DNA from: Zygnema cylindricum
Taxonomy: Eukaryota; Streptophyta; Zygnematophyceae; Zygnematales; Zygnemataceae
DNA: 64,000 nucleotides
Assembly (NCBI GenBank): GCA_037447655.1
Contig: JBBHKE010000276.1
Span: 1 to 64,000, forward strand
Reading direction: 5' to 3'
This document shows positions 1,796 to 48,425 of the stretch, piece after piece (the stretch's first letter is position 1; the number at the start of each line of letters is the position of its first letter). Made by a program: the position numbers and the translations under genes. The notes beneath the pieces were generated by a model. That model was not told where the DNA came from. It did no database searches and was given only the letters and a program-made list of their open reading frames with translations.

Positions 1796-1930
1796 CAGTG
1801 TCGTGCATTTGTCAAATAACGTGAAGATGCATGCAATATCATCAGCTGTGCTCCACTTTAAAATAATGAAAATATATTGTGAATGACGAGAAAGACAAAT
1901 AACAACTAAAAATGACAATATGTCCGACAC
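1796..1930. repeat. paralogous empty target site of Copia-2
   Basis: This stretch reads through gtcaaataacgtgaagat and then gcatgcaatatcatcagctg, followed by an aaaataatgaaaatatat segment. The same sequence is found split around Copia-2: its left half ends at 9253 and its right half starts at 15703. The aagat at 1824-1828 is present once here and twice around Copia-2, as expected for an unoccupied copy of the target. The repeat family itself is unknown to me. Confidence 0.85.
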
Positions 1931-2644
1931 TTATGAGATTTGAGATAGCCAAACTCAAAAGATGCGCATAAGCCAAACAAAAATAAATACACAATCACAG
2001 GAAATATAAACAACAAATCAATAATCCCAATGAAATTCTATGGGCTCCATTGCCACACAGAATTCGCAGATCCAAAGAAGCTAATCTAGATAGTGTCGAC
2101 TCCAAGTTTATTTAAACCAAAATGATTCACCCCTTGATAATCAAAACCCCATTACAGCTTCACCCCTGTAAAATAAGACTTTTTGTGTGCTCAGTTTCAC
2201 CACAGAATGCAAAGTTAGAATATGAGTTTAGGATAACATTCCCCACTTTGACTTTCCCTTAGAAATGTAGCCACCCTAGAAGGCAAAAACCTGACGGACT
2301 ACACCCCTGTCTAGCGTGGACTCCCCTGAGTCCGCAGCAAAAAGAATCACTAAATTTGGTCAACTAAGTAAGTCGTTATGGCTGGCCAAAGTTTGCCATT
2401 TATACAAGGTGCTCTATGGGAGAGGCAGCTACCTACCAGAAATATTCTAAGTACTATTCCCTCTCTAAAACTCTATCTATTGACGTACGGTACCAATCAC
2501 ATTAATATATCGTATAAAAAGTATAAGTTCTGGTGTACTTTCTGTACGACCATCGTACGATATGCCGAAATGTCGACACATGTCTATCCGGATTTGTTCC
2601 CGTAATCTCCGGAGTTGCAGCAATCCAATGTTGACATGCCACGT

Positions 2645-7989: not shown

Positions 7990-8569
7990 CCTGACATGCA
8001 ACTTCCACACTAATTAAAGTTCATTCACAGCCGAGAAAAGAGATATTGTGTCGTGAGAACGAGGTCGAAATCCACTCAAAAGCACGAGAGAAGTGAAAGG
8101 AAAACGTGTAGGTCTTGGCCGAAGCCGTATAGATTAATATGTAAGGCTTTACAAGATATTGAAAATGTAATAGAAAACTTAACGCTTTACGCTAAGGCAG
8201 AAAATTGCCTCTAAACTGTTCGGACAATTTTACAAATAAAAAGATGGCTGCAGAAATCCTCAATATTGAAAATAAATCATTCTTGCACTTGAAAATTGTG
8301 ACCACGAAATAATCTAAGATGAACTAAGTAACAAAAACTACGCCTAGCAAAAAAAACCCAATCAGAGTACAAAGTTTTATGTAAGTATTTGCGTCCAGTT
8401 TGGATTGAACCCATAGGAGGCCGAAATCCTATGCCCTACGTTACAGAATCTATAACCTTCGGATTAAAACCCTTCCTATCTACATGTGAATGCGTGAACC
8501 TCCAAATGGAACACGAATTAAAATGGTCCAATCACGTCGCTTCGTCAGAACTGACAGCCGATTTGTGAG
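7990..8569. other. no recognisable gene
   Basis: Unique-looking AT-rich sequence between Copia-1 and the tandem field. No open frame, motif or repeat end is visible. Confidence 0.5.
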
Positions 8570-9180
8570 TCACTTGCGTCGACGGTCCAGATGTGATATT
8601 ACGAAAATCGCATACTTTGTGTCGACGACCGAGATGTTACTCCACGCGAAATGATTAAAATGTGATGTCGGCCGAGATTCAAGGGAATGAAAGCTTGTAC
8701 GGTAGGACCGCAAATACGGTCCACTTTGTCGTTGCGCGAATTCCGGAAAATGTAAGTCGTACGTTCGACGTGAAATGATCGAAGTCACCGTTGGCGCGAA
8801 TCGCGGAAAATATATATAGTACGGTAAGTTTGTTTGTACTGACGTGAATTTGAACATGAGTTGTCGGCGGAAAATCCTAGAGAAATAAATAAGTACGGTC
8901 GACGTGAATCGACCCGATTCACTGTCGTCGGAAATCCCGAAAAATATAAGTCGTACGGTACAGGTCGTCGTCGGCAGAAAACCCCGGAATTCTGAGTTGT
9001 ACGGTCAACTTGTCGTCGACGCATATTACGGCCAAAAACGAATACATACGTGCGACGTGTACGGCGATGTAAAAATTGTACGGTTGACGCAAACGCGAAA
9101 TGTGGGTATGTACGGTCCTGCGAAACCCCAAATAACACCCAAATATAAATTAGTGTGGCGGCTGCCCGTCCTAACACCTA
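8570..9180. repeat. degenerate tandem repeat field (gtcgtacggtcgacgtgaa)
   Basis: Variants of a unit of roughly 65-70 bp recur with heavy divergence. The unit combines a cggaaaatcc-like block, a gaaaatataagtcgtacgg-like block and a tcgacgtgaatcg-like block, for example near 8740, 8810, 8890, 8950 and 9000. The open frames on both strands here follow the repeat periodicity and do not look like genes. Confidence 0.55.
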
Positions 9181-9253
9181 AATATAAACAATTAGAATGG
9201 CCGACAAGATGCGGCATGACAGTTGTCATGCATGTGTCAAATAACGTGAAGAT

Positions 9254-10302
9254 TGAAACTCTGAGACCTCCATAAGTCCTCAGAGTAGACAGCTTCCAAG
9301 AAGCCTCTAGGATAATCCTGACCCCTTTGTGTTCCAGCAAAAATAACTGCCACCCTGGCAGACAAAAACCCAGACCACCTCCACCCCTGTAAAGGCAAGA
9401 CTCCCCTGAGTCGGTAGCAAAAAGAATCTTTGAATTTGCTCCCCTGAGCAGTAAGTTATGGAGGGTCAAAGTTGACCTTTTGTACAGAAGCTCTCTGGGA
9501 GAGGGGGTCCTATCTTCTAATTTTTCTAAGTCCTATCTCTCTCACAGACTCTATCTACTGATGTACGGAACCAATCAGAATTGAGTTCCGTACGCAAAAG
9601 TACAGCTTTTGGTGTACTTTATATACGGACATTGTACGACATGGCCAAAATGTCGACACATGTCAAATCCGAATTCGGTGCCATAATCTCCAGAGATTCC
9701 ACAATCCAACGGAATTTCGCCACGCGTCATCCGATGTGGCGATGGCCACAAACCGCCGAAATCTTCCTCCGCGATCTCGGCGCTAATTCCGGCCGTCCGA
9801 TTAAATTCGGCTTTAATCGTAGCCGTAATAAATACATGTGCGGTATTTATTTCATTTACGAAACAAATGCGTGGTACTGATTTGTGTCCGTACCGTAAGT
9901 CGTACATTATATATTACTGGATCTATGTATCCCGTAAATCATTTCAGTTAAATGGTTTATCGCACGTATACATATTTAAATAAATATCAAACTATATGCT
10001 ACGTAACACCACCGCTAGACTTAACGGCTAAGGCTACCGGCTATCTCCTGTCTGCCGGCCGGTAGGTAGAAGGATCAAATCCTGCCGCCGGCATATACCT
10101 TTGAATTAAATAAATAAACCCTAATATAAAATTCCCGTAAACCTCAGGATAGCCAAGGTAGCCATGGCTCTAGCTTCCTCTCCAATTTCTTAGTGACTGC
10201 GACAAGTTTGAGAGTTGGAGAGAGAAGTTAGAGATAGACTGCCTCGACTTCTATATTTCTTTTCAGACCTAGATAATACTAATAAAACCATTAGTTTCTA
10301 CA
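9254..10302 (-). repeat. 3' LTR of Copia-2
   Basis: It runs from tgaaactctgagacc to ttagtttctaca on the plus strand and is followed by the polypurine tract at 10303-10315 (minus strand aaataaggggag). It carries a tRNA-like structure at 10053-10093. Confidence 0.93.
10022..10093 (+). other. tRNA-like structure in Copia-2 3' LTR
   Basis: An A-box-like stretch, tagacttaacggctaagg, begins just upstream. The stem tgccggc (10053-10059) pairs perfectly with gccggca (10087-10093) and encloses agg-atcaaat-cct with the B-box-like ggatcaaatcc. The stem sequence differs from that in Copia-1 and the solo LTRs but stays paired. Confidence 0.5.
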
Positions 10303-10315
10303 CTCCCCTTATTTT
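10303..10315 (-). promoter_or_regulatory. Copia-2 polypurine tract
   Basis: The minus strand reads a purine run, aaataaggggag, ending directly at the 3' LTR. The polypurine tract primes plus-strand DNA synthesis. An identical tract abuts Copia-1's 3' LTR at 4921. Confidence 0.8.
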
Positions 10316-10398
10316 CTAGTCAATCTTTAATTTCAGACCACCCTTCTCCCTGCAAAAAATTAGCTTAGGGGAAGGCACAGGTTTGGTCATCATATCTG

Positions 10399-11337
10399 CT
10401 ACCACTCACTATCTGGTCTGTACTCTAAACTGATTATTTTGTTTTCTACTTTCTCTCTAACAAAGCTGAGTCTGATGTCCATGTGTTTGGCTTTAAAATG
10501 GTGTTTAGGATTGGCAGAAATAGCGATTGCTGCCTGATTATCACAAAATATTTTCTGCACACCACTCTTAAGGTGACCAAGCTCACCAAGCAAAGACTTG
10601 ACCCACATCAATTCTTTTACAGCAGAGCAAGAGGCCATATACTCAGCCTCCATGGTGGACTGAGCAATAACCTTTTGCTGTTTGCTACTCCAACAGCAAG
10701 CCCCATCACCCACATATAATACATATCCAGAAGTACATCTCCTCATCGGAGCATCACCATAACTGGCATCACTCCAAGTAGTGATGTCAGTATTCTCCCC
10801 ACCCAAATGCAACCATAGATCTCTAGTTCCTACCAAGTATCTAAGGACTCTCTTAGCTGCCTCCCAATCCTTCTTAGTGGGAGCATTTAGACTTCTACTC
10901 AGCACTCCTACAGCTGCAGCTAAATCCGGCCGGGTACAATTCATAAAATAGATTAGACTTCCCACTACTTGCCTGTAAGGAATAGTCTGCATGAACTTCT
11001 GTTCATCAGGAGATAATTCCTCGTCTAAGACTATGACTCCTTCTTCCTCACTCCCCTCACTTCCCTTCTTCAACTCCATTGGAGTTGTACAACTATTAGC
11101 TTTATCCATTTGAAATTTTTCAAGCATGTTCCCTATTGCTTCCTTTTGAGTCAATCTTATAATTTTCCTTTTTCGGTCTCTCTCTACTTGAATTCCCAAA
11201 ATATATTTTGCTTCCCCCATATCTTTTATTTCAAATTTCCCCTTAAGATCGGTTTTCACTTTATTAATTTTTTCCATTGATTTACTTAAAACAAGCAAAT
11301 CATCAACATAAATTGCAATAAATATAAAACCTTCCAC
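10399..11337 (-). pseudogene. Copia-2 RT C-terminus and RNase H
   Basis: This 312-aa frame starts inside the RT palm and includes the catalytic FIAIYVDDLLVLS motif near residue 10. It continues with the copia connection motif RPDLAAAVGVLSR and ends with the RNase H domain: TTWSDASYGD (first catalytic Asp), STMEAEYMA (Glu) and IFCDNQAAI (Asp). It ends shortly before the polypurine tract. It is cut from the upstream RT half by a single in-frame TAA after RISSNH, so it was once one polyprotein with the next entry. RNase H removes element RNA from the RNA-DNA hybrid. Confidence 0.92.
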
Positions 11338-11355
11338 ATCTTCGAAAACATAGAT

Positions 11356-12270
11356 TTAGTGATTTGAGCTGATCCGGATATATCCCAGACCGGTAAGAAA
11401 CTCATCAAGCTTCTTATTCCACTGTCGAGGCGCCTGTTTCAAAGCATAAAGAGATTTAATCACCCGGCATACCTTACTCTCCTCTCCTTCTTCCACAAAC
11501 CCTTCGGGTTGTCGCATGAAGATCTTCTCTTCCATATCTCCATGCAAAAAGGTTGTTTTGATGTCCATCTGGTGCACTTCCATGTCTTCCGCTGCTGCGA
11601 AGCTGATAAGTATGCGAACGGAGGAAAATCTGACCACCGGGGCAAAGGTTTCCTCATAGTCAATTCCCTCCTTTTGTGTAAATCCCTTTGCCACTAGTCG
11701 GTCCTTGTAGCGCTCGATTGTGTTATCTGGGTTCAGTTTTAATTTAAAAACCCACTTACAACCGATTGGTTTTCGGTTAGGTGGACAATCCACCAGCTCC
11801 CAAGTATCGGCTGCCATAATTGAGGTCATCTTTTCATTGATGGTTGTCTTCCACCGATTTCTTTCTGGACAAGTCATCGCCTCTCGATAAGTTTGAGGTT
11901 CATCTTGATGAGATATTTTAGTTACCTTGTTATTAACCTTTTTTTCTTGCAGTGTTTTACTACTTCTCCTTCCCCCCTCAAAATCTGAGGCCGGAATAGA
12001 TGGTTCTCGTGGATTCTTTCGAACAAACTCGGTTTCTCCCCTATCCGCTGATTCCGAATCAATTTCCACCACGTCTTCCGCTTCGGGTAGAGTTATCACT
12101 AGAGTTTCCACAGCCGAGTCCTTTTCGGTCTGATTTGTACCTGCAAGAATGTCATCGTCTCTAAAACCTGGATAGTTAGGAAGCTCAAAGTCATTGGAAT
12201 TTTCAAACTCAAATCTGATTTTTACTAACTTCGTATATTTGAAAGGATCCACAGACTTTCCTTCATCCAT
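11356..12270 (-). pseudogene. Copia-2 integrase C-terminal linker and RT N-terminus
   Basis: This 304-aa frame holds the variable acidic linker after integrase (with DFEGGRRSSKTLQ), then the copia RT start [19 protein letters not shown], the fingers motif ARLVAKGFTQKEG in slightly altered form, [11 protein letters not shown] and HQMDIKTTFLHG with the first palm aspartate. It stops at 11356 by one nonsense codon before the YVDD frame. The linker length and order fit Ty1/copia pol. Confidence 0.92.
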
Positions 12271-12468
12271 AACTACTAGATGTTTTACTGAGATTATATA
12301 TTCCCTTTTTAGATCATAAACTCTATATCCTTTAACATGTTCATCATATCCTAATAAGTATCCCGGTTTTCCTTTAGGATCTAGCTTCCAATTGGACCGA
12401 TCTGTATCTATACTGAATACTTGATTGCCGAAAACCTTTAAGTGAGATATGTTTGGTTTCTAGCCTGT

Positions 12469-13494
12469 CTATCTCTCATAAGGTGTTTGATCTTTTATAG
12501 CTGAAGTAAGAACTATATTTTTGAGATAATTAGCGCAGTTCATTGCTTCTACCCAAAATCTTTTTCCTATCTTTTTATCTGACAACATACTTTTATCACT
12601 ATCACTTAGTGTTCTATTTAACCTTTCTGCTACCCCATTCTGTTCCATATTTTCTGGAACTGTCTTTTGGTGTTGGACCCCATCTTCCCTCAGAAAATCC
12701 TCAAACTGGTTAGAAGTATACTCTCCACCATTGTCACTCCTTACTCTCTTCATTGGAGTTTCATGGAGTTTTTCGCTCCATGCTTTATATTGTCTAAAAC
12801 AATCCTCAGCTTATGACTTGTTTTTCAAAAAATACACCCGGGAATACCGAGACCAATCATCAGTTATAATCATCATAAATCTCTTTCCCCCCGGTGAGGG
12901 CACTTTAGCCGGACCCCAAATATCTGTGTGTACTAGATCTAGAAGTTTTTCTCCCTTATATGTGGCTATTTTAGGAAAGGGTAATCTGTGTGTTTTACCT
13001 TGAGCACATCCACTACAATCACTTATATTATCATTCTCACTAAACTTAATCCCTTCCACCACTCCCATCTTTTTCATCTCTCTTAACTTATCTAGATTGA
13101 CATGCCCAAGCCTCTTATGCCACATCATAATATCATGAACACTAGCATAATAAAGTTTCTTCTTTTCATTACTTAAGATCAGCCTAAACATCCCATGGCT
13201 ACCTTTCTTAGCAATGAAATAGACATTATCCTCAAAACTAGCAGTAAAGACTCCTTCCCTAGTGCTAGTAAAAAAACCCTTATCATCTAATACTCATGTA
13301 GAGATAAGATTTTTGTTCAGCTCCGGAATAAACAATACATCGGAGAATGTTAATATAGATGTCTTTCCTTCTACTAACACTTTTAGATCTACCGATCCTA
13401 CAAGAGTAGTGGTGACTATCCTCCCATCCTTGTACACTATCTCTATGGTGGGAATATTTCTTATCTTAGTGAATAGGTGTCTATCCTTACACAT
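12469..13494 (-). pseudogene. Copia-2 integrase, interrupted by stops
   Basis: Minus frames 13494-13294, 13191-12811 and 12753-12469 are consecutive parts of protease C-terminus and integrase. The HHCC zinc module is visible (MWHKRLGHVNL and CSGCAQGK), and the catalytic core shows D, D and E in VHTDIWGPA, VRSDNGGEY and NGVAERLNRT. Integrase joins the cDNA ends to the target and makes the 5-bp TSD seen. Stops separate the pieces, including one directly after VYFLKNKS, so no full-length enzyme can be made. Confidence 0.92.
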
Positions 13495-13800
13495 TGCATG
13501 GAGGCACCTGAATCTACAATCCAGCCTGCTTCACTTTTCAATCCACCGTAAACACATTTCTGCCTTCGTGGAATTTTGACCTCGTTTTTCGCCTCCAACT
13601 CCTCATCCAAAAGGCGCTCATCGTCCTCGTCCTCGGATTCCGCCTCAAGTACCTGTGTGACAAGGGCCTTTTTCTTTCCTCTCGGGGTACCACCGGTCTG
13701 CCCTTTTTTTTTACCGAAGCTCGGTTAGCTTAGTGCACTCTGCCATATAGTGCCTTGGTTTCTTACAAAAATGACATAAACCTTTGGGAGCCCTTTGTTC
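13495..13800 (-). pseudogene. Copia-2 zinc knuckle and protease active site
   Basis: At about 13733-13782 the minus strand encodes CHFCKKPRHYMAEC, a CX2CX4HX4C knuckle with Gly changed to Arg before the His. At about 13500-13545 it encodes GWIVDSGASM, the aspartic protease active site DSGAS. A one-base loss just after this (near 13495) shifts the frame into the following piece, so the polyprotein is broken here. Confidence 0.85.
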
Positions 13801-13872
13801 GAACTCGTCGGCCTGTTTTTTCTGCTCCCTACCCCCATAGTTTCTGACCGGTTTTCGGGAATCTCTGTTCCT

Positions 13873-14673
13873 CTAATCAGTTGCTATTGCCAAGGCTTGG
13901 CCACTCTTTCCTCCCCTTCGGATCTCAATTGTATTCTCTTGAACGAGAATCATCCCTACCACTGAGTTCCATATCCACCTTGAGTCAGGCAAGTCCTGCA
14001 CACGGTAAACTATGTTCACGAACTCATCAGGTAACTTCATCAGTAAACAGTTAACCTTTTCTTTTTCACTAAAATCTTTTCCCGCACTCTCTAGCTCCAT
14101 GAAGAGTGTAGCAAGCTCATTGCAAAAATCCAACATATTTCCCCCTTTGTATACATACTCCTTAACTTTCTGATCAGCCAACTGTTGTTGCTGAATCGTA
14201 CCACTTCGGTACATCTCTATGAGAGCCATCCAAAGATCGGATGCCCTTTCTACCTGCAAATGAGGACATGCAAGTCCTTGAGTGAGATGGCGTAGGATGA
14301 AGTGTTTTGCCGCCATATTGTTAAAGTCCCAGGTTTTAGTATCATTCTCCTCATTCCTCGGAATAGGTGACATAAATGTCGAACCAGTTGCTATTGGTGT
14401 GATCGTCTCCTTCTCCTTTCCTTTGTCCACCACCTCTCATTTTTTTGTTTCCTACGTTGAAGGTGGATCCTCTTTCCTGGTGAATCTGGTTCCTCGAAAC
14501 ACTAAAGGAATTCGAAGACTTGATGGACGCCCCAACCGTCCACTCACTATCCCACAAATCCTTTTTTCGCATAGAGCTCCTATCATCATACTTTCCCAGT
14601 ATATGAAGCTAGTTCCATTAAAGATTGGTACCCTAAAGGGTGGGCCCATAACCTGAAACTCTGAGACCTCCAT
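13873..14673 (-). pseudogene. Copia-2 gag, frameshifted
   Basis: The frame at 14673-14452 starts MEVSEFQVMGPP: its first ATG lies in the LTR and its second within the PBS. The frame at 14433-13873 carries the capsid region with RASDLWMALIEMYRS, IQQQQLADQKVKEYVYKGG and NTIEIRRGG. Copia-1 and Copia-3 have the same order of motifs. At least one frame break near 14440 separates the N-terminus from the capsid. The translated LTR end gives a possible leader of about eight residues ahead of the PBS methionine. Confidence 0.85.
14639..14653 (-). promoter_or_regulatory. Copia-2 PBS, initiator-tRNA anticodon-loop type
   Basis: The minus strand reads ggttatgggcccacc directly after the 5' LTR. It is complementary to the anticodon stem-loop of plant initiator tRNA-Met over 15 bases, with ATG opposite the CAU anticodon. 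Confidence 0.87.
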
Positions 14674-15702
14674 AAGTCCTCAAAGTAGACAACTTCCAAG
14701 AAGCCTGTAGGATAATCTTGACCCCTTTGTGTTCCAGCAAAAATAACTGCCACCCTAGCAGACAAAAACCCTGACCACCTCCAACCCTGTAAAGGCAAGA
14801 CTCCCGTGAGTCGGTAGCAAAAAGAATCTTTGAATTTGCTCCCCTGAGCAGTAAGTTATGGAGGGTCAAAGTTGACCTTTTGTACAGAAGCTCTCTGGGA
14901 AAGGGTGTCCTATCTTCTAATTTTTCTAAGTCCTATCTCTCTCACAGACTCTATCTACTGATGTACGGAACCCATCAGAATTGAGTTCCGTACGCAAAAG
15001 TACAGCTTCCGGTGTACTTTATGTACGGACATTGTACGACATGGCCAAAATGTCGACACATGTCAAATCCGGATTCGGTGCCATAATCTCCGGAGATTCC
15101 ACAATCCAACGGAATTTCGCCACGCGTCATCCGATGTGGCGATGGCCACAAACCGCCGAAATCTTCCTCCGTGATCTCGGCGCTAATTCCGGCCGTCCGA
15201 CTAAATTCGGCTTTAATCGTAGCCGTAATAAATACATGCGCGGTATTTGTTTCATTTACGAAACAAATACGCAGTACTGATTTGTGTCCGTACCGTAAGT
15301 CGTACATTATATATTAATGGATCTATGTATCCCGTAATTCATTTCAGTTAAATGGTTTATCGCACGTATACATATTTAAATAAATATTAAACTATATGCT
15401 ACGTAACACTACCGCTAGACTTAACGGCTAAGGCTACCAGCTATCTCCTGTCTAGCGGCCGGTAGGTACAAGGATCAAATCCTGCCGCCGGCATATACCT
15501 TTTAATTAAATAAATAAACCCTAATATAAAATTCCCGTAAACCTCAGGATAGCCAAGGTAGCCATGGCTCTAGCTTCCTCTCCAATTTCTCAGTGACTGC
15601 GACAAGTTTGAGAGTTGGAGAGAGAAGTTAGAGATAGACTGCCTCGACTTCTATATTTCTTTTCAGACCTAGAAAATACTAATAAAACCATTAGTTTCTA
15701 CA
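14654..15702 (-). repeat. 5' LTR of Copia-2
   Basis: This has the same termini and length (1049 bp) as the 3' LTR. Its tRNA-like stem (15453-15459 with 15487-15493) has lost perfect pairing (tagcggc against gccggca), while the B-box-like ggatcaaatcc is kept. Confidence 0.93.
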
Positions 15703-15707
15703 AAGAT

Positions 15708-15883
15708 GCATGCGATATCATCAGCTGTGATCTACTTAAAAATAATGAAAATATATTGTGAATGAAATAAGACATGAAAGAGAAAAATGAATAAATATAA
15801 CGACACGCAAGGTGGAAGAAAAAGAAAGGTCAACGACTTAGTTGGTTATTGTTAGATTGGTTTATTCCCCCCCCCCTAGCTCT
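15708..15883. other. right half of the split repeat; 3' edge of gypsy fossil
   Basis: 15708-15800 continues the repeat seen intact at 1829-1930. At 15867-15878 a C-run (a polypurine run on the minus strand) lies just past the PHD stop. It could be the gypsy polypurine tract, but no LTR follows that I can recognise. Confidence 0.4.
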
Positions 15884-16105
15884 TTAGCCAGCCGAGGAGC
15901 TGGCCAACAAGACCAAAAGCTCGCGACATCCGTGGCAAAACCAATGACCATCCGGAATTGCCAACAATGGTGGCACTAAACACTCCATGTGAAACCCTTG
16001 ATTGCAATAATCACAAAGTAACATGGTAGTTTCCCCGTCCGATCGATGACAAAAGGTACATGCCGTCGCCTTCGTAATCGGCATCCGCATAGGATCCGTT
16101 TCCAA
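15884..16105 (-). pseudogene. PHD finger at C-terminus of gypsy polyprotein
   Basis: The 73-aa frame holds a complete Cys4-His-Cys3 PHD finger: CTFC, then LLCDYCNQGFHMEC, then PPLLAIPDGHWFCHGC, with the conserved Trp two residues before the penultimate Cys pair. PHD fingers usually read histone H3 tail methylation states in chromatin. It lies directly downstream of the integrase C-terminal region on the same strand, and an upstream frame continues into it after frame changes. It was therefore probably the C-terminal domain of the element's pol, perhaps a targeting module in place of the chromodomain of chromoviruses. Confidence 0.85.
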
Positions 16106-16173
16106 CGAGAAATCTGGTAAGTAACATGGAGCACAATTCTAGGAGTGCTCGCAAAAAGTCCGCGTGTCTGCTC

Positions 16174-17274
16174 CTAGTAATCCCAACATTCCGTTCGGAT
16201 CCACCTCGATAATCCGTAGGATGTGTGCCGAAACATCCGTGTCCAAAGTGTCAAAAGATTACCTACGAAGATAAACATAGTCTCCAACCCGATAGGGCTT
16301 CTGTTGCGGCTTGTAACTGCCGCTTCGAGTGGTGGCAAACCGAAGTGTGTCCGATGCTGGGCAAACTGCAGGTTATCAAAATCCATGGGCATTTCACTGG
16401 CAAAAAGCAAAGCACGGCGAGTGAGTTCTTCCAAAAAGATAGTCTCAGACATTAGCAGAAGTGGAAAGCTTGCAGCTTTCTGAATATTGCGACCGAGCAA
16501 CGGTTGTCGCCCAAATAAAACATAATACGGGTTGAAATTAGCCAGACTAGCCTGAATTGACATGCGATATCCCATGGTAATGTAGCCGAGGGACTCGTCC
16601 CAAACAGAAATGTGTTTCTCTAAGCAATGCTTATGCAAGGCACGCTTAAATGTCGGGACTGCCTATTCAGCTTGGCCATCGGTCTGGGGGTGATCGCGAC
16701 TAGTACGGCGATGATCAATGAGAGCCTCATTGAGCATCTCTTGAAATTCTCCCCGAAATTTTGTACCTTGATTCGTCACGACCTCGGCTGGGGCACCGTA
16801 TCTCATAAAGACATGTTCCTTAAAAGCGACGGTGGTCAACTTAGCCGTCTTATGAGGGAATGCTACGACTTCTACCCACTTATTGAAATTTTCGATCATA
16901 ATCATCATATATTGTTTCCCTCTACGTGAGATAGGGAAAGGTCTGGCCAGATCGACCGACCATCGATAGAATAAACCCCTAATGGGTAGAGGTTGGAGCA
17001 TAGGTTGTCGGTTAGAGAAAGAAGGTCGGAGACGATCACAGGTAGCACACTTGTGTAGAATAGCAGCGACATCAGCTTCTATTCCTGACCACCAATAACG
17101 TGCATGAACTAGACTTAACATCCGCTTGGTAGCGTAGTGACCAAACTCATTGTGAATCTGCTCAATGAGAGAAAGATGCTCGGTAGGCCGTGGAACGTGC
17201 CTATGGCTTCTGTCTGCCAACAACCGAACTAAAGATCCTCCGAGCCAAAGGTAACTTTTGGCCCTCTTTTTCAC
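16174..17274 (-). pseudogene. Ty3/gypsy integrase
   Basis: Minus frames 17274-16663 and 16638-16174 make up a gypsy integrase. The HHCC module is HNEFGHYATKRM...CATCDRL, followed by the core with WSVDLARPFP (first Asp), VVTNQGTKFRG (second catalytic Asp changed to Asn) and DHPQTDGQAE with the Glu region. The second frame carries YVLFGRQPLLG, typical of gypsy integrase. Beyond it, another frame holds a PYRVGDYVYLR-type segment leading to the PHD finger. The Asp-to-Asn change alone should abolish activity, and a frame break follows QAE. Confidence 0.9.
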
Positions 17275-17610
17275 TCTGTCTTCTTCGTCAGAGGTAGTGC
17301 CGGACCTAAATGTCTAGGAGGATAGGAAAAGAATGAGAGGCCCATCACGCCAAGGATATGTGGCGGGACAGGGGTTTAGAATAGAGGCCAGGCAGTAAGT
17401 AAGATAAGAAACCATTAACATGACGCGAACATCATCGTCATCGAAATCCTGTCGAACTCCGTTATCTGTCGTTCGGGGCAAAGGATTTCGGGAAATTCCG
17501 TCTGCGTTTAGACTAAGCAGACCGGGTCGATAAATTTTTTCAACGTCATATTCTTGTAAAATTAAAGCCTATTGGGCTAGCTTCCCAGAAAGCTTATCGC
17601 TCGTCATCAG
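17275..17610 (-). pseudogene. gypsy RNase H to integrase tether
   Basis: In the frame downstream of the RNase H piece the minus strand reads LILQEYDVEKIYRPG and then NADGISRNPLP, the usual Ty3/gypsy RNase H ending (IxYRPGxxNxxADxLSR). Several stops interrupt it, one of them just before LILQEYDV. Confidence 0.7.
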
Positions 17611-18213
17611 CTAATGTAAGGGATGGTGGTTAGTCAGAAGTGTGAAAGGTTTTCCGTACAAATAATGGCGGAAGTGAACGACTCCCCAAACTGCGGCGAG
17701 ACACTCTCCTTCGTAGCTACTATAATTTGATTCACTCCGGTTATTGCTTCTACTCGCGTAAGCAACTACGTATTCCTCTCCGCTCAACTCTCTTTGTGTG
17801 AAGATGGCAGCAATTCCGGGTTTCCCAAAATCTGTTTGGAGACAAAAAGGGAGTTTGTGATTGGGAGGACGGAGAATTGGAGCACTTGATAAGACGGTTT
17901 TTAATTTTTGAAATGCGGAAATCTGATTGGGACGCCATATAAACGCCACTTCTTTCTTGAGAAGGTCGTTTAACCGAGATGCGATGGTGCTAAAATTAGA
18001 TACAAACCTGCGATAATAATTAGCAAGTCCGAGAAAGGCTCGCAGACTTGTGAGGTCCGTGGGAGCAGGCAATTTACTGATTGCCTCTACCTTTGCTTCG
18101 AGAGGAGTGATCCCCTCAGCCGAGATAAAATAACCGAGGTAAGGCACTCCCTCGGCTCCAAAGGTGCCTTTCGCTGGATGACATTTTAATCCGACCTTCT
18201 TTAATTCAGTCAA
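17611..18213 (-). pseudogene. gypsy RT thumb and RNase H
   Basis: The 200-aa frame begins after the YIDD site and includes LKCHPAKGTFGAEGVPYLG, then LRAFLGLANYYRRFV (RT thumb), CLQTDFGKPGIAAIF (RNase H first Asp) and SNYSSYEGECLAAVW (Glu region), ending at the HYLYGKPFTLLTNHHPL segment where the usual Asp is Asn. The gypsy-type order RT-RNase H-integrase is confirmed. It is cut from the upstream RT by a stop near 18235. Confidence 0.92.
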
Positions 18214-18975
18214 TACCCATTCGATGTGAGCATCGTGCTATTCGATAGTATCAGAGGCAATGATGAGGTCATCGATGTAACACCTAGCAAACTAACAACC
18301 CCTGAGGATTGAGTCCATCACTTTTTGAAATACCGCTAGAGCGTTTTTCAGTCCGAATGGCATTACGGCTCATTCCCATCGGCCGTCACTACCCCAAAAG
18401 GCAGTTTTATGCTGGTCTATTTCCTCTATCTCAATTTGATTGAATCCCTGACGGAGGTCAAGGATACTAAAATACTTCGCTCTGCCTACGTGATCAAATA
18501 TTTCTTCGGCAAGAGGCATGGGATGACGATCTTGAACAGTTCTAGCGTTTAGTTCACGACAGTCACCACACATTCAACGTTCAGTAAAATTACCCTAGAA
18601 TCATTTTTCTCAGGCCTGACGGTGGGAGCTGCAAATGTGGAGTCTGACCGAACGATTAGGCCAGCTTCCTCTAGTTCAGCACATCGCTTCTCTACCATTT
18701 CCCATTCAGTTTCTGACAAACAATGTTTCGGTTTAAATATCAGGCGGTCATCTTCGAGATCTATCGACATCTTATAAGCGGTGACGACCCAAATTGTTCA
18801 TAGAAAAGGCAAAGGCATCAACATTTCGTAAAACTACGTCATTCAGTACCTCTTGTTCGGCCTTTGTTAGATTGGTGCCGAATTTCCATTTAGGAGCATT
18901 GGGATTTTCGGTTGTCATAGCTTCCATGGCTTGTACAAAGGCCAACTGCTCATTTGCGATAAGCGTTTGACCTAA
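18214..18975 (-). pseudogene. gypsy linker and RT fingers/palm
   Basis: About 18776-18975 encodes the region before RT, with LTKAEQEVLNDVV and NVDAFAFSMNNLG, in the frame style of gypsy elements. 18770-18549 gives TEWEMVEKRCAELEEAGLI. 18573-18370 gives CGDCRELNARTVQDRHPMP and FSILDLRQGFNQIEI (palm Asp). The catalytic YIDD lies at about 18268-18279. At least one frameshift near 18560 and several stops separate these parts. The aspartic protease expected before the linker was not identified. Confidence 0.85.
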
Positions 18976-19372
18976 CTAGTAAGCTACAATTGTATATTTA
19001 AGGCAATTAACTGAATGATTCCAACTACGTGTTGGAAAAGCAGCACTCCAATGAGGAGTGGGTGGAATATGCATAGGACTTGTAGACTGGATTGCCGTGT
19101 ATGCGAGAATAGACCAGGACATATGGCTAGGGTTAAAGAAATCGTAGATAGAGATCTCCGGGACTGGTGGAATTGGAGAAGGAAAGAGGAAAAATTGAAA
19201 TGTGGTCCCTTGGAGAGTGGGACGAAAAGATTTTCTTAGTGATGCATTCCCCCCCCAGCTGGTTGAGACGGATGTGCCTGAGAGTGGCGACCAGCTGCAA
19301 ACCTCAGACGTAAAACAAAAGACAAAGAATGAGGGTCCATGACACGATCTAATAAAGTGCATCTTTAACGTT

Positions 19373-20100
19373 CTATAACACCGAAGCGGCTGTAGTGCCA
19401 GGAATGAAATGCATGAGGATTTCTCGTTCCGTAGAGGTAGGCTCTTCCAGTTCACCGGTATGAATGTTTCGGAGCATGCCAGGACCGTCATTAAAGAATA
19501 CGTGTGAATGTGGGTAAGAGACTAAGGTAGGAAGAACCTTGAGAGGTTAACTCGAGACATTGATATTAAAATTAGGAGGATAGTTCTTTTGAATGCAATG
19601 CTGCACCTTATGGAAAGGAAGAAGGGCAGCCTAGATGTCTGTAGGAGGAGGACGAACTGACAAGTTGGCCTCTCGGAGTCGACCAATATCGATCAGGTTC
19701 ATCCATTTGGAGCGAACCCGGTGTGCTAGTGAACCATGGCGAGCAGCGTCAATAATAAGAGGCGGACCAATTAATTGTTCGATCCGTTGATAATCAGCCA
19801 AAACCGTAGGTCTTGGATCATTATAGGCTGCGACATTTTCCAAGATATACCCAATAGGATGATCTAAAGTTTGTAGAAAATGCAGAATGCGAACCAATTC
19901 AAAAAATAATTTGGCGCGGGGATCGGCTAATCCCAGACCTTTCTCGGCCCGAGATATTCTTTGGCACTCCCATCCGCCAAAAACTAGATCGATTTGACCA
20001 ATATCTTGTAAGTGATGGTTGCCCACAATCTGGATGTTTTGTGGGTGGGCAATATGCATATGCTCGTATGCGGATTTTGGTAACAAATACAGGTATTGGG
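19373..20100 (-). pseudogene. C5 cytosine DNA methyltransferase domain in gypsy fossil
   Basis: One minus-strand frame runs from the junction at 20100 to a stop at 19373, with only two internal nonsense codons (19631-19633 and 19547-19549). It shows IDLVFGGWECQRISRAEKG (motif IV with the catalytic Cys, Glu replacing the usual Pro of PCQ), LFFELVRILHFLQ, YILENV (motif VI), GSLAHRVRSKWMNL (motif VIII, resembling AHRAR-WGNL of DNMT3/DRM enzymes) and EPTSTEREILMHFIPGTTAA (motif IX/X-like). Motif I for S-adenosylmethionine is missing because the gene is truncated at 20100 by an LTR. The enzyme would transfer methyl groups to cytosine C5 in DNA. It sits upstream of RT on the same strand, so it probably belonged to the gypsy element, but that association is inferred from order and orientation. 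Confidence 0.82.
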
Positions 20101-21286
20101 TGTAGAAATTAATGGTTTTAAAGTATTTTCTAGGTCTGAATAGAAATAAAGAAGCCGTGACAACCTACCTCTAACTCTTCACTCAAGTCCCCACACTTGT
20201 CGCAGTCACTGAAGACTTGAAGAGGAGTTAGATCCATGGCTGCCTAGGCTGTCCAAAGTGGACAGGAAGGCAATTCTTAATAGAGATATCTAAAAGGTGT
20301 GACGGACCCAGGATTTGATCCTGGTACCTACCGTCCGTCAAACTAGCCGTTCGCTTTAACCAACAAGTCTAAATACAGTGCTAAAGTACGATAGGTTTCA
20401 CAAAAATTTATATTTGTACGTGTAGACTAGTTCGTCTAACGGGAATAGATACGTAATGCATAGATACAGTTTTGTATAGTACGGAGTACGATTTAATGTA
20501 TTTTATGAAACGGATACATTCGCATTTGTTTCGAACGCGAAACAAATATCGCACGTATATTTTTAACGGCTACAATTGTATCCGGCTTGATCGGACAGCC
20601 ACGATAATCGCCGCGATCACTGATTATGTACTTTTGGCGTTTTTCAGTCACCGCCACGTCACGTGACACGTGGCGCGACAATGCTGGATTGCGCCGACTA
20701 CGGAGATTGCGGTAACAAATCCGGCTATGACACGTGTCGACATTTTGGCCATGTTGTACAATGGTCGTACAGAAAGTACACCGGCACCTGTACTTTTCTG
20801 TACGACACACTAATTTGATTGGTGCCGTACTTCAGTAGATAGAGTTTTAGAGATGGAATAGGACTTAGAATATTTTGGGTAAGTAGTTGCCTCTACAAAA
20901 GAGCACCTTGTACAAATGGCAAACTTTGGCCAGCCATAACTATCAATTTACTTGACCATTTTCAGTGATTCTTTTTGTTGCGGACTCAGAGGAGTCTACG
21001 CTACATTGGGGTGTAGTCGGTCAGAGGTTTTGTCTTCCAGGGTGGCGATATTTCTAAGGGAAGTCAAAGTGGGTGAATGTGTCCAGATCTCATATTCTAA
21101 CTTTGCATTCTGTGGTGGAACTGACCACACAGAAAGTGTTATTTCACAGCGGTGAATCTATATTTGGGTTCTGATTGTCAAGGGGTCAGTCATTTGGGTT
21201 TATATCAACTTGGAGTCGGCACTACCTAGATAAGCTTCTTTTTGGATCTGCTTATTCTGAGGGCCAATGGAGGTCTCAGAGTTGTA
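20101..21286 (+). mobile_element. copia LTR abutting the methyltransferase
   Basis: This starts tgtagaaattaatgg exactly where the methyltransferase frame is cut, and ends near tctcagagttgta. Its 5' end resembles Copia-2's LTR and its 3' end resembles Copia-1's 6814-7989 LTR. It contains the antisense tRNA-like structure with stem tgacggac/gtccgtca (20300-20307 with 20333-20340). No TSD is found, and a second LTR 3' half follows directly. Confidence 0.75.
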
Positions 21287-21957
21287 TAGATCCATTAATG
21301 TAAAAGTACGGATTACGGTACGGATAAGAAACCAATACCGCGCATTTATTTCTTTAATGAAAAGAATACTGCACATGTATTTATTACGGCTACGATTTAA
21401 TATGAATTTAATCGGACGGCCAGAATTAACGCCGAGATCGCGGAAGAGGATTTCGGCGGTTTGTGGTCATCGCCACATCGGATGACACGTGGCGGAATTA
21501 CATTGGATCGCGGCATCTGCGAGCATTACGGGAGCGAATCCGGACATACCACGTGTCGACATTCAGGCCATGTCATACAGTGTTCGTACAGAAAGTACAC
21601 CGGCAGCTGTACTTTTGTGTACAGAACTGCATTCTCATCGGCTCTGTACATCACTAGATAGAGTCTGTGAGAGAGATAGGACTTCTAAAAATTAGGAGAT
21701 AGGACCCTCTCTCCCAGAGAGCTTTTGTACCAAAGGTCAACTTTGACCCTCCATAACTTACTGCTCAGGGGAGCAAATTCAGAGATTCTTTTTGCTATCG
21801 ACTCAGGGGAGTCTTGCCTTCACAAATTGAAGTTGGTCAGAGTTATTGTCTTCCAGAGTGGTTGTTGTTTTTGCTGAAACACAAAAGGGTTAGGGTTATC
21901 CTAGAGGCTTCTTGGAAGTTGTCCACTCTGAGGACTTATGGAGGTCTCAGAGTTTCA
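21287..21957 (+). mobile_element. 3' half of a second copia LTR
   Basis: From tagatccattaatg to ctcagagtttca this matches the 3' half of the LTR at 3888-4920, including gtaaaagtacg, cggtacggataagaaa and the closing block. The 5' half is absent. This gives the same double 3'-half structure seen at 2031-4920, in the same order relative to LTR polarity. Confidence 0.7.
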
Positions 21958-22988
21958 TTACTCGTGTTCAAGAATTAACTTGTGTAAAGATTGTCATCAC
22001 GATTCCATCCGAGCTTCTTGAAGAGTTTTTTTTTCGTTTTCTCCCTTGGGGCCCCTGGGTTCGTAGCCTAGTTATTGCCTATACTTATTCTCTCTAGTCT
22101 AAGTTTCATGCTTGTTCAATTCACCACGCGTTATGCCGTGCTTGGTCTTGCTCATCCGCCTTTACTAGGCTCTCACGGTTGCTCGTGCCACTACCTATTT
22201 GAGCCCGATGGCGTACATCTACCATGGTGCTCCCAAAAATAAAATTCAATTCGAGCACCCTACAATATTTCAGACCGGGTTCCGACTATTGTTTTTTAGA
22301 GAGGGTATTCTTTTCGGCAAGAGGTCCCACATAATAATCCTAAACCATAGTCGCTTCATATAGTTTTGCTCGATAGTGACCGTTGAACCTTTGGCAACAT
22401 TGTTTTGGGGAATCTAGCTTCGGTTACAAATGTTCGTCGGGTGGCTAAACGTGTTAGAGTAGCTACAAGTGTTGTCGTTGAGGAGTGTAATTATGGACAC
22501 CGAGATCCTACGGATGACGCAATACTAACAATTGAAAAATATTTGATTGTTTGGGATTATATAGGATGAGTTCCTTCTTATTCTGGGGAGCTTTCTTGCG
22601 ATAGCAGTGGCCTTTCTAATTGCTTCACCGTCGTCAACTTTTATATGTGGCTTTACAGCTCATATAAGCTTCCATCCTTCGTCTGTCTACTATTGTTCTT
22701 ACAAAACATTGACGTCTTATGGAAACTCCCTCGGTGTGCTCCAACTAGTTTAAGGGGTTTGGGGGTTTTCTTGTAATGTTTCTCTAGCTATTATGAGGTT
22801 TGGTTCTGTAGTTCTGATTTAGATATACAATTTGGTTTTTGCTACTATGTTTGTTGTTCATTTCGATGCCTTGTGTTGTTAGAGCATGTTTTCCCTTTCA
22901 GTTGCTTCACCTATATTTGGTTTTTTAGTTTCATCTTTGTTGTTTCTTTATTAAAAATATTGTCTTATTTATTATATTCCCATTTACT
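21958..22988. other. no recognisable gene
   Basis: A T-rich plus strand, particularly after 22600, with no long frame. It could be a gene 3' region or an old non-LTR relic; nothing specific can be supported. Confidence 0.4.
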
Positions 22989-23986
22989 TGTTGAAATCTA
23001 AGGTTTTTATTGTATTTTTTAGATCAGGATATAAAAATAAAAGGGACTTAATTGATAGTAAGGCTTCGTCTTTTCTCTCTCTAGTTACCATACTTATTGC
23101 AGTCATTGAAGACTGGTCAGAGAAAGATGGAGTCATGGCTGCCTAAGCAGCCAGAAGAAATGTGGTAGACCATCACCTTAACAAAAAGGATGGCGGACCA
23201 AGGATTTGATCATGGTCCCTATAGTCCGTCAAGTGTAGCTGGTAGCATTGTCCTATAGTCTAAAACCAGTGCTACGATGTATAGGGTGTGATAATTATAT
23301 GAACCAATACAGCTAAATTAAGCTGATTAACAGAATTATAGGACTGTAACATAGAAACAGTCAAGGAATTTGCATAGACTCACGGTCGACTAATTTTAAC
23401 GGCACATATTAAATACCGGTTAAACATGGGACGGCTCCTATTCAAGCCGCCATTGCGGAATAGTCGCTTTGGCCGCTTTTGGGCGTTATGTCACCCAATG
23501 ACACGTGGCGCCACATCATTCGATTACAAGGTTTGCGGGAAACACGGAGACATGTCCAAAACAGACGAGCGTCCCCTCTATAGCTATATCGTGCAATGGC
23601 CGTACAGGAAGTACATCGGCAGCAGTACCTTCATGTACTGTACACTCATCTGATTGGACACGTACATCGGTAGTAAGGGGTTTAAAGAGGGGTTTAGGAC
23701 TTAGTGTTTTTTGGTAGATAGCCGCCTCTCTCCCAAAGACCTTGTATAAAAATTGACATCTTTGCCATTTGATAATTAATCGCCTATTTGGGCGTTTTCA
23801 AAGATTATTTCTCTTGTGGGCTCAATGGAGTCCAATGGAGTCCAGACTACACAAAGGTGTAGTCATTGATATACTTTGCCTACCAGGGTGGCAGTTCTTT
23901 TTACACAAAGGTGTCCGCTGAAAATTCACTAGAGGCTTCATATAGAAAGGGGAACTCTGTGATCCAATGGGGGACACAGAGTTACA
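22989..23986 (+). mobile_element. solo copia LTR with TSD TTACT
   Basis: This 998-bp segment begins tgttgaaatctaagg and ends gacacagagttaca. It is flanked by ttact at 22984-22988 and 23987-23991. It shares the LTR architecture of the group: a cgcagtcactgaaga-like segment, the tRNA-like block at about 23191-23231 and the GTAC block. It is more diverged than the others, so probably older. Confidence 0.9.
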
Positions 23987-26698
23987 TTACTCATATGATT
24001 TACCAACGTACTTTCCACACAAAATCTTATTTTGTTGTAATAAACGGAGAGATGCCACAAGTCTTTTGGTTGTTACACTTAAAGGGGCAAAATACTTTTG
24101 TATGTGCTACAAAATTGAAAATTTATGTCGTTAGAGGAGTTCATCTCATGACCTACGCGTGAACAACACTCTTACGAAATTATGATCGTAACCAATCGGA
24201 GTACTTGGGAACCAGAGAGCAAGTGGAAGGGAAAGCCAAAACTGAAAAAAAAGCAGGCAAAACAGAATAACAATGTCAACGAAAGAAATTAACAAAAAGA
24301 CGATGGTAGGTAAAGGACGATGGTAGGTAAAAGACGATTGTAGGTAAATAATGGTAGTCAAAGAAGCAACATCGAGTAAAAGAAAGAGCAAGAGAGTGCT
24401 TAAACTAACATTACCTCACCAAAATCTATCATGACGAAAAGTTTTTGAAAAACAACCTCGTAAATCTCCCAAGCCCGAGGGAGCCTTTTGTCGAAGTTTC
24501 CAAAACACGTCGCCGATCCATAACCTTAATATTTGATTGAAGGAGGATAAAAGCTTGCACTCATCATAAAGCCGCGGATAAAAGTTGGCGATACAAAAAA
24601 CTAAAGATTACTCATTTTGGCATTTTCCTCTTTTCGACCCCCTGGCAAGCGAATCCAGGTCATCGAAAAACTTGATTGAAATTCACCTCGCGATGTGCTT
24701 TTAGTTAAAGTTTCACCTAAACAACAAATGATAAACATGCATGCATCACACGAGTGGGAAAAATTTAGGATGAGGGAGAGTACTTGTTATTTTTCTCCGT
24801 GCCCGTCACGCTCATGGACGGAAAAAAATTAGCAGGGGTCTCGAACCTCCACTTTCATTCATGGGTTCTTTGCAGAAGTTTACGCCGTCGTCGCCTCTCT
24901 CTTCTCCTTCTCACACTATTGCTTTTACCCCACAATTTTTAGAATGAGACACGACAATACTGGTATGAGCTAAAAGATATTTGAAAAATAATTCTTTTTG
25001 ACTACCTTTAGGTATATGCAAGTCAATTGATAAAAGTTGAAAAAACGAAATAGGGAATTGAAAGGCTGAAAGTACTTGAATCACTATCGTCGACGCTGTC
25101 ACAAGTGTATATGACGTCACAATGTCACAAAACCTTAAACATCTACAATGTCAAAAAAATATAGACTTCTACAAGTGTTGTTGTTTTTGTTGGCGTCACC
25201 AATGGTCTGAAGTTTCGTAGTCATCTTAAACCGTCATAAGTTGTACTTACGTCTACAACCGTCACATGTCAAAGTTTCGAGTTCAATTTTGCACATTGGA
25301 ACGCTCTTCAAAGTGGTACGGAGAATCTTCACTAAAATCCAAAATACTTCTTCAAAGTATCGATTACATGGGGATAATCCCTAAGGGAATTTATCAACAG
25401 ATACTTGGACAGTCCAACGCCTCAGGCTCCTAAACCGTATCGACTACTGGTTTATCGGTTACGATTTATGGAAAGAGTCCATAGAGTTTTGGAGGGCGGG
25501 GGGGGGTCGAGTTTCGAAACGTCTTTTTGACCCAGGTATTCAATATCCGCAAAATCTTGGAGATTTTTAAATGGACCCTAAAATGTTTCTCAAGTCTTAA
25601 GGTATACTTGTACTGTAGCTCCACTCCATATCTATTTTGCCAAGTGTACGGTAAAGGTCATCCCTACAATGGCTGAGTGAAAACGTTATAAAACGTTGAG
25701 AGACTTCCGTGTACTTTGTGACAACATTGTATGCGCGTGGGTCCAAATAGCACCACTCGCTGGCTGACATTTGGCGCCAAAAAATCTAAATGGTCACTGG
25801 TCCGGCCCCATGGGAAAAAGGCGGTCTTACAAAAATCTTCAGATCATCTAACATGACAAAGTCTAAAAAGACAACGGTACGACTGGACGTTGTGACTCTC
25901 TTTATGCTGGTGCTTACGTCACATAAGCAATTGTTTTGTCCTTTAGATAGGTTTAGCTAACACGTGTAAAGGAATTAGCATCCGAGGCAAGCTAGAAACT
26001 TACCTGACGCCACGACAAAATCTTTTTTGGGTTAACCGTAATTCTGCTTGTCAAGTATCTGCCGTACACCTCAGCCGACATTAAAGCGATAAATCATTAC
26101 GATGCGTATTGTAATCTTATTCTTTGTCGTATTATAAAATTTTACGAAAAGCGCAACAATAATCTCGTTTAATCTCGACATCTAAGTCCCGACAGCCAAT
26201 GAGATTACAGTATGCTCGTGTAATGAAATCCCGCCGCATATTGAAGCCAGGATTATCCTAACGGCTGCATGCTTTTCAATTTTGGAAGCTATGGTTTCAA
26301 CTTACGTACAAAACGACAAAAAACTCAACCAAGGGCGAAAAAGTGGTGATTTCAGGGCCTTTATCTGTGATTTGCCACTTTACGGCCTTCAGATCCCAGC
26401 AGGCCATAACTTGGACGGTCAAGACTCGCCCTATCTTTGAAATCGCGCTTGAAACGACGGCCGGCTTTGGGCCCTGATGAAACGGAGCCGCTTTCCAAGT
26501 TTCCGATGATCTTTCAGCGAATGCCAGTTTGGCATTATGGCAAGTAGATTTTTTGCGATCTTTTCGTACAAGTCAGCGTCACAAACGGAATATTGGTGGT
26601 TTGGAACATTTAGCGTCAGGTGTCAATTACCTTTAATCTACGACTATAGGACTGACGGTCTATAGTTCCAATCGTTGATCCTTGGATTCTGTCAGCTA
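23987..26698. other. no recognisable gene
   Basis: No coding motif is seen. A short tandem array at about 24296-24356 repeats a unit near agacgatggtaggtaaa three times with changes. The open frame at 24146-24391 (minus) overlaps this array and is hydrophobic by composition only. Confidence 0.45.
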
Positions 26699-27236
26699 CA
26701 CCGCGCATCGTTATTAGTGTCAACGACACTAATTTGGGCTATTAAAATTTTGATTTTTTTCCTCAAATAGGATACATGATTTTAATTTTTCCTTGACGTT
26801 AATTAAGGTACCGTACAAAATAGCGTAAAGGACGAATTACAATTATATATAAATAGTGTGGTGTACGGTCGATGTCAGACCGTACACAAATGTACCTTTT
26901 CAAGTGAAAATTTTACAAAAAATGAGTAAAATCAGACTCGCACGCATAGGATCGTGCGCTAAAAAAACGGGATTGTTCTGACACGTAAATTAGTCTTACA
27001 TGTACGGATATTTAAATTTCACGACGGCTTACGATTTTTAATATTTTGCATGGCTACATATATTAATGTAAATAATTGTACAACGAATATTCCATTTCGG
27101 TGTTCCCAAATTAGCATAAACGCCGAAAAATTAGAATACACCTTTTAAAAAAAAAAAAAAAAATCTTAATTAGCATCAATGATGGTATATTTACTTCACA
27201 CTATTTAAAATTTGACACTAATAACGATGCGCGGTG
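26699..27236 (+). mobile_element. MITE with TA target duplication, copy 1
   Basis: The terminal inverted repeats begin caccgcgcatcgttattag and end with the reverse (ctaataacgatgcgcggtg), flanked by ta at 26697-26698 and 27237-27238. It is 538 bp long and non-coding, with an internal A-run at about 27147-27163. A second copy lies in reverse orientation at 29374-29898. TA duplication suggests mobilisation by a Tc1/mariner-like transposase, which is an inference. Confidence 0.8.
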
Positions 27237-27246
27237 TAATTTTGTA

Positions 27247-27443
27247 CATCGCCAATCGCTATTAGAGTATATAACGCTAATACGGTGCCCCTAAATTTTG
27301 ACCCTAAAACCTGAAATAGAATTAATAACGCTATTAAGGACGTGGACCATAATCTGCCACGTCTCAGGCACTAAATAAGAATCAATAACGCTAATTATTG
27401 TTTGACGCTATTTAATCCTTGACTCTAATAGCGATTCGCGGTG
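27247..27443 (+). mobile_element. short MITE with TA flanks
   Basis: This 197-bp unit starts catcgccaatcgctattag and ends with the reverse ctaatagcgattcgcggtg, flanked by ta on both sides. It shares TIR sequence with the longer MITE and lies just downstream of it. Confidence 0.65.
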
Positions 27444-27641
27444 TAGCACTGAGAAATATGTCCCGCGGGGTTTAATTTATTGTTGGTGATTCTAAGACGT
27501 GTCCGGGAGACGTGGTCATTTTTCGGACGTTTACCAAAGTCAATGTTTTTAACTGTTAGAACTGCCATTATCAAATACTGCATTACAGTACAGACTAGGT
27601 TGGTTAAATTTTGGCCCGCGGAGTGGACCGTGTGGACACTA

Positions 27642-27839
27642 CACATTGAATCGTTATTAGCGTATAGAAATTATTATTGTAGAGAAAAAATTAGCGTCAT
27701 TCATTCTAATTTAGTGTCAGGAGACGTGGTAGATTATGGTCCACGTCTTTAAATAGTGCAATTTGTTATATTTAACGTATCAATGTCAAAATTTTGGGGT
27801 GGTGATATAGCGTACATAAGGCTAATAACGATTCACGGG
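27642..27839 (+). mobile_element. short MITE, degenerate TIRs
   Basis: The left end cacattgaatcgttattag and the right end ctaataacgattcacggg are related inverted repeats about 200 bp apart, within ta-containing flanks. The body contains gcgta-rich short repeats and is non-coding. Confidence 0.5.
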
Positions 27840-31738: not shown

Positions 31739-31740
31739 TA

Positions 31741-45235: not shown

Positions 45236-45237
45236 AT

Positions 45238-45249: not shown

Positions 45250-45277
45250 TAGTGCTTCGGAGATAGAGAGAGAGCGC

Positions 45278-48419: not shown

Positions 48420-48425
48420 GAAAAT

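Follow-up and report, generated by a model that had tools for sequence, protein, structure and literature searches.

A decayed Ty3/gypsy retrotransposon with a DNMT3-type methyltransferase and a PHD finger in Zygnema cylindricum, and the family to which it belongs

The copy in the window and its parts

Our analysis concerns a 64,000-nucleotide stretch of the Zygnema cylindricum genome (positions 1 to 64,000 of contig JBBHKE010000276.1, assembly GCA_037447655.1), hereafter called the window. A first-pass annotation, made from the letters alone, had read a cytosine-5 methyltransferase, reverse transcriptase (RT), RNase H, integrase and PHD finger in that order on one strand. Pfam matches and reading frames located all of these parts in the claimed order on the minus strand. 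The reading is thereby confirmed: these are the parts of a dead Ty3/gypsy element, and its methyltransferase is of the DNMT3 type.

The methyltransferase remnant (19239..20100) begins ahead of motif IV and extends to motif X; motifs I and II have gone with the 5′ end. It was recognized by its Pfam match, its match to DNMT3A and its relatives. The piece at 20083-19634 matches PF00145 (DNA_methylase) at 35.4 bits (E 1.1e-8), above the cut-off of 22. Its frame runs from 20100 to 19376, interrupted by two stops (19631-19633 and 19547-19549); another frame, which reaches 19239, holds the last motif. The C-terminal pieces alone gave no score with any methylase model, one of them (57 amino acids) matching no methylase in Pfam or the PDB, and were identified by alignment to relatives. 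Next comes RT in broken frames (18238..18975), where one piece matches PF00078 (RVT_1) at 29.2 bits (E 9e-7), marginally below the cut-off of 29.6, and a YIDD box can be read by eye at about 18279-18268. The C-terminal part of RT and RNase H occupy 17614..18237 (PF17919, 104.7 bits; PF17917, 82.9 bits). The integrase (16666..17313) consists of an H2C2 zinc domain (PF17921, 49.6 bits) and a DDE core (PF00665, rve, 38.8 bits) in which, by eye, the second catalytic Asp has become Asn. The PHD finger lies at the C terminus (15887..16138; PF00628, 46.3 bits), in one frame with the C-terminal region of the integrase (16372-16142); it is of the C4HC3 type and, by eye, keeps all eight zinc ligands. 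We regard the copy as dead because its frames are broken throughout and the second Asp of its integrase reads Asn.

The 5′ end is indeed lost, as had been annotated: plus-strand copia long terminal repeat (LTR) sequence at 20101..21957, identified by sequence comparison and no part of the gypsy element, cuts the methyltransferase at 20100/20101. This sequence consists of two related copia LTR pieces arranged head to tail, the second without its first part, and has no matching target duplication. Beyond it, no gag or methyltransferase remnant was recognized by eye in 21958-32000, and the leader and gag-protease region of a relative, copy C1915, found no further match elsewhere in the window.

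On the 3′ side, a run of ten G (15867..15876) right behind the stop codon is a putative polypurine tract, read in the sequence and matched by a G-run at the same place in relatives. There follow, all on the minus strand, pieces of two kinds of repeat, which we call A and B. The first part of repeat B1 (15703..15866) is 81% identical to B of C1915; its last part (9224..9248) was placed by an empty-site alignment with window positions 1799-1930. Between them a complete-length minus-strand copia element (9254..15702; target duplication ATCTT, LTRs 96.8% identical) is nested in B1. Repeat A2, the 3′ LTR, begins with 7994..9221, whose two longest pieces are 87-93% identical to A of C1915, and continues past more copia sequence at 1887..2030 (87.5% identity). 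The 5′-truncated repeat B2 (1799..1886), which is 93% identical to B1 of the window and 90% to B of C1915, forms the 3′ end of the element. A 3′ LTR starting at the G-run near 15870 was also considered and rejected on comparison with copies C1344 and C1915: that stretch is B1, and A2 starts at 9221. The gypsy copy thus extends over about 18.3 kb, copia insertions included; the annotated span of 15884..20100 holds the domains ascribed to it and is too short, since the 3′ repeats reach about 1799. Scanning the window for Rfam families and tRNAs gave no match.

A family with one long frame

Relatives were searched in the window's own assembly (352,776,454 bases). The methyltransferase query gave 1287 first-look candidates, of which 150 were scored, and at least 151 matches; the PHD query gave 789 candidates, 150 of them likewise scored, and at least 150 matches. 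These counts are lower bounds. Spacing was counted between the first 100 methyltransferase matches and 89 of the 150 PHD matches (the first 74, plus 15 chosen for contigs with methyltransferase matches). At least 53 of these best 100 methyltransferases are followed, on their own strand, by a PHD match no more than 12 kb away. The two lie 3389-3574 bp apart in 43 of the 53, the window copy included, and at shorter or longer distances in the other 10. For three methyltransferase matches (C2100, C1959 and C1535) the PHD match inside 12 kb lies upstream or on the other strand.

Domains standing without gypsy sequence were looked for from both sides. Of the best 30 methyltransferase loci, 29 have protease and motifs I-II immediately upstream; the window copy, which is one of the 30, is the exception. 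RT lies downstream at a constant distance in 28, L021 and L024 being rearranged. Seen from the PHD finger, the integrase lies directly upstream in nine of ten loci; the tenth, L040, ends at the contig end. Furthermore, the natural copy C1344 has a single open frame of 2395 amino acids which, scanned in pieces, reads CCHC knuckle-aspartic protease-DNA_methylase-RT-RNase H-H2C2-rve-PHD. The Ty3/gypsy Pol order of protease, RT, RNase H and integrase is present in it, the protease scoring below its cut-off. Since both domains stand in one natural frame and keep a constant spacing in many copies, their membership in the retrotransposon family, which the first-pass annotation had based on orientation and position, is settled. 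In the window alone, the broken frames between methyltransferase and RT and the missing 5′ part of the former could suggest an unrelated host or passenger gene fragment lying beside a gypsy fossil by chance, an explanation that is refuted to the point of near impossibility by the 2395-residue frame, which holds the whole domain set, and by the equal RT distance and upstream protease of the surveyed loci. The family is an abundant, high-copy one of the Ty3/gypsy type. Scans of IMG/VR with the RNase H, methyltransferase and integrase pieces and three motif patterns, and of GTDB with two motif patterns, returned no relative.

Some copies deserve a remark of their own. In L024 (C12:28791-29234), and also in L039, a rearranged copy passes from the methyltransferase region directly to integrase and PHD without RT. 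Identical methyltransferase translations occur on different contigs (L008/L009 and L027/L028/L029), which are either very recent copies or contigs duplicated in the assembly. In two copies, the leader between A1 and the frame contains tandem repeats of about 65 bases (L041:1043-1263 and L044:7915-8235).

Among solved structures, DNMT3A and DNMT3B are the closest relatives of the methyltransferase piece (best E 6e-10), well before HaeIII, HhaI and DRM2, and a bacterial class was rejected on this ground. Complete METHYLTRANSFERASE domains carry motifs I (DLFAGIG), II, IV (GGWECQG or AGWECQG), VI, VIII (HRVR) and X (LLGRVMDP) in linear order, in the usual motif numbering. DRM enzymes have a rearranged order, with motifs VI-X ahead of I-IV. 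Because the motifs here are linear, the DRM class was rejected and the enzyme is DNMT3-like, a class assigned by motif order and PDB scores.

The PHD finger resembles those of PHF12, KDM5/lid, DPF3, WSTF and BAZ2. As a rule, a tryptophan marks the PHD fingers that form H3K4me3 cages. The finger of this family has no such tryptophan and we would therefore guess that its ligand is the unmodified H3 tail. No chromodomain was found in the last piece of the C1344 frame; the PHD finger is in its place.

Constraint was estimated from the ratio of non-synonymous to synonymous differences per site (pN/pS) in four copies that had been selected for long frames and fall into two pairs of nearly identical sequence. 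Between the C1344 and C2577 subfamilies, pN/pS was 0.155/0.813 for the methyltransferase (ratio 0.19), 0.124/0.810 for PHD (0.15), 0.057/0.864 for RT (0.07) and 0.058/0.842 for the integrase. Synonymous sites are saturated, therefore the real ratios should be even lower. Within this four-copy sample, methyltransferase and PHD look constrained, less so than RT and integrase.

Split repeats and a possible replication cycle

Copies C1344 and C1915 show the repeat order A-coding-B-A-B (A1, B1, A2 and B2) and not plain A...A terminal repeats. The two A repeats are identical at 931 of 931 positions in C1344 and at 1468 of 1475 in C1915; the B repeats agree at 242 of 243 and 191 of 192, respectively. 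The element has TG...CA termini, its outer ends being TGTCATGC and GCACGACA. Seven copies were examined: the three with both ends located are all flanked by 4-bp duplications (TTGG, CCCT and, in C704, ACTC), and in the other four (C1848, C1307, C561 and C1407) the 5′ end was not where expected. Such ends and duplications fit a DDE integrase.

An A2-B2 query gave 41 matches, 20 of which were fetched. Eleven of these loci have the order B1-A2-B2 and nine are A-B units without B1. Five of the nine solo units have perfect 4-bp duplications at their flanks, where chance would give 0.04; the other four have none that is exact. A G-run immediately precedes B1 in all 11 B1-A2-B2 loci (9-13 uninterrupted G in eight, interrupted in three), about 18 bases past the PHD match. 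At the B1|A2 boundary stands a near-palindrome, GCACGACA-GC-TGTCATGC, in which some copies have base changes or short indels. The A2|B2 junction is variable: of the 20 loci, 16 could be aligned on both sides of it, and these show 11 forms that contain 0 to 3 G and additional bases.

Based on these observations we propose, with moderate confidence, that the window holds a decayed copy of a family whose gag-pol (CCHC-protease-DNMT3-RT-RNase H-integrase-PHD) encodes a DNMT that methylates the element's complementary DNA (cDNA) and a PHD finger that steers integration, and whose cDNA ends are joined and then opened at B|A. Architecture, abundance, constraint, ends and decay were read from sequence, and from them we infer the roles. 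The DNMT, produced within Pol, would methylate new cDNA before integration, probably at CG, and the methylated cDNA might thereby be taken for host DNA. The PHD finger, at the integrase end where chromoviruses have their chromodomain, would bind a histone H3 tail and direct integration.

In ordinary strand transfer, the sequence after the 3′ repeat is copied from that after the 5′ repeat. An ordinary cycle could not make B2, because the leader follows A1 but B2 follows A2. We propose instead that cDNA begins at the G-run (B) and finishes at A, and that a plus-strand start at the G-run would give B-A-coding-B-A. Joining of the cDNA ends, followed by integrase opening at the near-palindromic B|A, would then produce A-coding-B-A-B, with the boundary GC removed at the outer ends. 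The variable A2|B2 junction is in keeping with end joining. In consequence, a DDE-integrase element would integrate not from linear cDNA ends but from a joined A2|B2 product opened at the internal GCACGACA-GC-TGTCATGC, which resembles a two-LTR circle junction; we put this forward tentatively, as something quite possible. Integration from circle junctions was reportedly once proposed for retroviruses. If it occurs here, a pre-integration circle would also suit the element's own methyltransferase as a substrate.

The split repeats could also arise by a templated route like that of DIRS and PAT elements, in which the transcript carries the A2|B2 junction and it is copied in each round without joining of cDNA ends. 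PAT elements as described in PMC4157794 have this repeat order, as does KnitGypsy-Dnmt3 according to a figure legend in PMC5890265; moreover, three near-identical copies have one A2|B2 junction in common, which also counts against our proposal. However, the seven pieces of the 2395-residue frame contain rve and no tyrosine recombinase (families at E up to 0.01), and the TG...CA termini and 4-bp duplications are in keeping with a DDE integrase. In addition, B2 starts at or near the start of the G-run, as expected of plus-strand DNA, and the junction has many forms. We consider the templated route possible and somewhat doubtful.

A different role for the enzyme must also be weighed. The DNMT might act on host DNA or RNA, or damp transposition to mutual benefit, and so not protect cDNA, while the PHD finger would be merely a protein anchor. 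RNA methylation (for LINE enzymes) and slowed transposition are among the possibilities discussed in PMC5890265. Self-methylation is likewise proposed there as the role of retroelement DNMTs, and CG activity is shown for the dinoflagellate DIRS enzymes. The position of the enzyme between protease and RT in Pol places it with the cDNA, and nothing in the data separates the roles. We regard these other roles as possible and rather doubtful.

Several further observations weigh against the proposal of cDNA methylation and end joining. In motif IV (GGWECQ) the catalytic Cys is kept and the residue before it is Glu; Pro is usual at this position. The aspartic protease match in C1344 reached 20.0 bits (21.7 bits was also obtained) against a Pfam cut-off of 24.3, and rve in the C1344 piece reached 29.5 bits against 32.6. 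The constraint estimate has the narrow sample given above, and for the pair C2577/C1915 the integrase pN/pS was 0.65, with few changes. The flank on the B side of the A2|B2 junction has indels in 12 of the 16 loci and that on the A side in 3 of 16, so that junction variability is an unclean signal. No tRNA-type (TGG-type) primer site was seen by eye after A1 in two copies. Finally, the DNMT of KnitGypsy-Dnmt3 gave no methylation in yeast, a result that its authors called inconclusive, as reported in PMC5890265.

The decay of the window copy also bears on this question. It was scored at positions where C2577 and C1915 agree, with both strands pooled. C>T changes were found at 49 of 1139 CHH sites (H being A, C or T), 11 of 123 CCG, 38 of 403 CG and 28 of 197 C[AT]G sites, the excess over CHH being significant for C[AT]G (p 1e-6) and CG (p 2e-4). 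Transversions at C[AT]G were no different from those at CHH (p 0.43). Because C>T is biased to CG and CHG, the copy looks as if it had formerly been methylated at both. In the window as in the gypsy pol, the observed/expected ratio of CpG is close to 1; there is no bulk methylation signal and the signal appears only against related copies. CHG methylation is typical of streptophytes with a chromomethylase, and the decay by itself would suggest a streptophyte host, though not prove one. The CHG decay points to methylation by the host, from whose CG methylation self-methylation is indistinguishable, and this too weighs against our proposal.

A further copia element in the window (45200-50000) is poor in CAG (19 vs 58 expected) and CTG (18 vs 45), with no depletion of CCG/CGG; this shortage may be a footprint of CHG methylation. 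Elsewhere in the window, inverted-repeat arms at 26697-29900 form a chain, about 2-3 kb apart, that resembles a single large imperfect foldback. A cysteine-rich open frame of 130 amino acids (61235-61624) matches Pfam Defb50 at 20.3 bits, below the cut-off of 27.

Comparison with known systems

DNA methylation is a host weapon against transposons. Since a very abundant element keeps both a writer of DNA methylation and a reader of histones in a single polyprotein, the advantages of self-methylation and of chromatin choice become testable in one system. Split repeats combined with a DDE integrase call for a replication route outside ordinary strand transfer.

Chromoviruses are gypsy elements with a chromodomain on the integrase. 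The Zygnema family is similar to them in having a chromatin-reading domain at the integrase end, but this domain is a PHD finger and not a chromodomain. In the text of PMC6338049, which names chromoviruses, transposon-encoded methylases are said to be absent from land plants. According to PMC12344493, some DNMT3 enzymes lie within retrotransposons of streptophytes and dinoflagellates, LTR Copia and DIRS being named. Our literature search (full-text search, titles and starts of abstracts, few subscription journals) found no gypsy element with DNMT and PHD, nor any combination of split direct repeats and a DDE integrase.

The Zygnema family has features in common with two groups of DIRS elements. 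SymbioDIRS-Dnmt3 of Symbiodinium, as described in PMC5890265, also carries DNMT3 in a retrotransposon Pol and has A-coding-B-A-B repeats; it uses a tyrosine recombinase, however, in contrast to the DDE integrase and 4-bp duplications of the Zygnema family. The PAT-type elements of PMC4157794 share the split direct repeats A1-B1-A2-B2, but again have a tyrosine recombinase, and their methyltransferase domain is of the adenine type according to PMC5890265.

The closest counterpart is KnitGypsy-Dnmt3 of Klebsormidium nitens (de Mendoza et al. 2018, PMC5890265). As in the Zygnema family, a DNMT3-type methyltransferase with intact motif order lies in the gypsy Pol open reading frame under purifying selection and, according to the figure legend, the repeats are DIRS-like. 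The main text of that paper, figures aside, makes no mention of PHD, and our comparison is by description only. The Zygnema family, for its part, numbers at least 151 methyltransferase matches in a 352.8-Mb genome. The first-pass annotation had called the pairing of writer and reader unusual; the partnership with PHD was not met in the literature searched, while a gypsy Pol with DNMT3 had been described before (PMC5890265). Compared with KnitGypsy-Dnmt3, only the PHD pairing, the host and what the ends revealed could thus be new.

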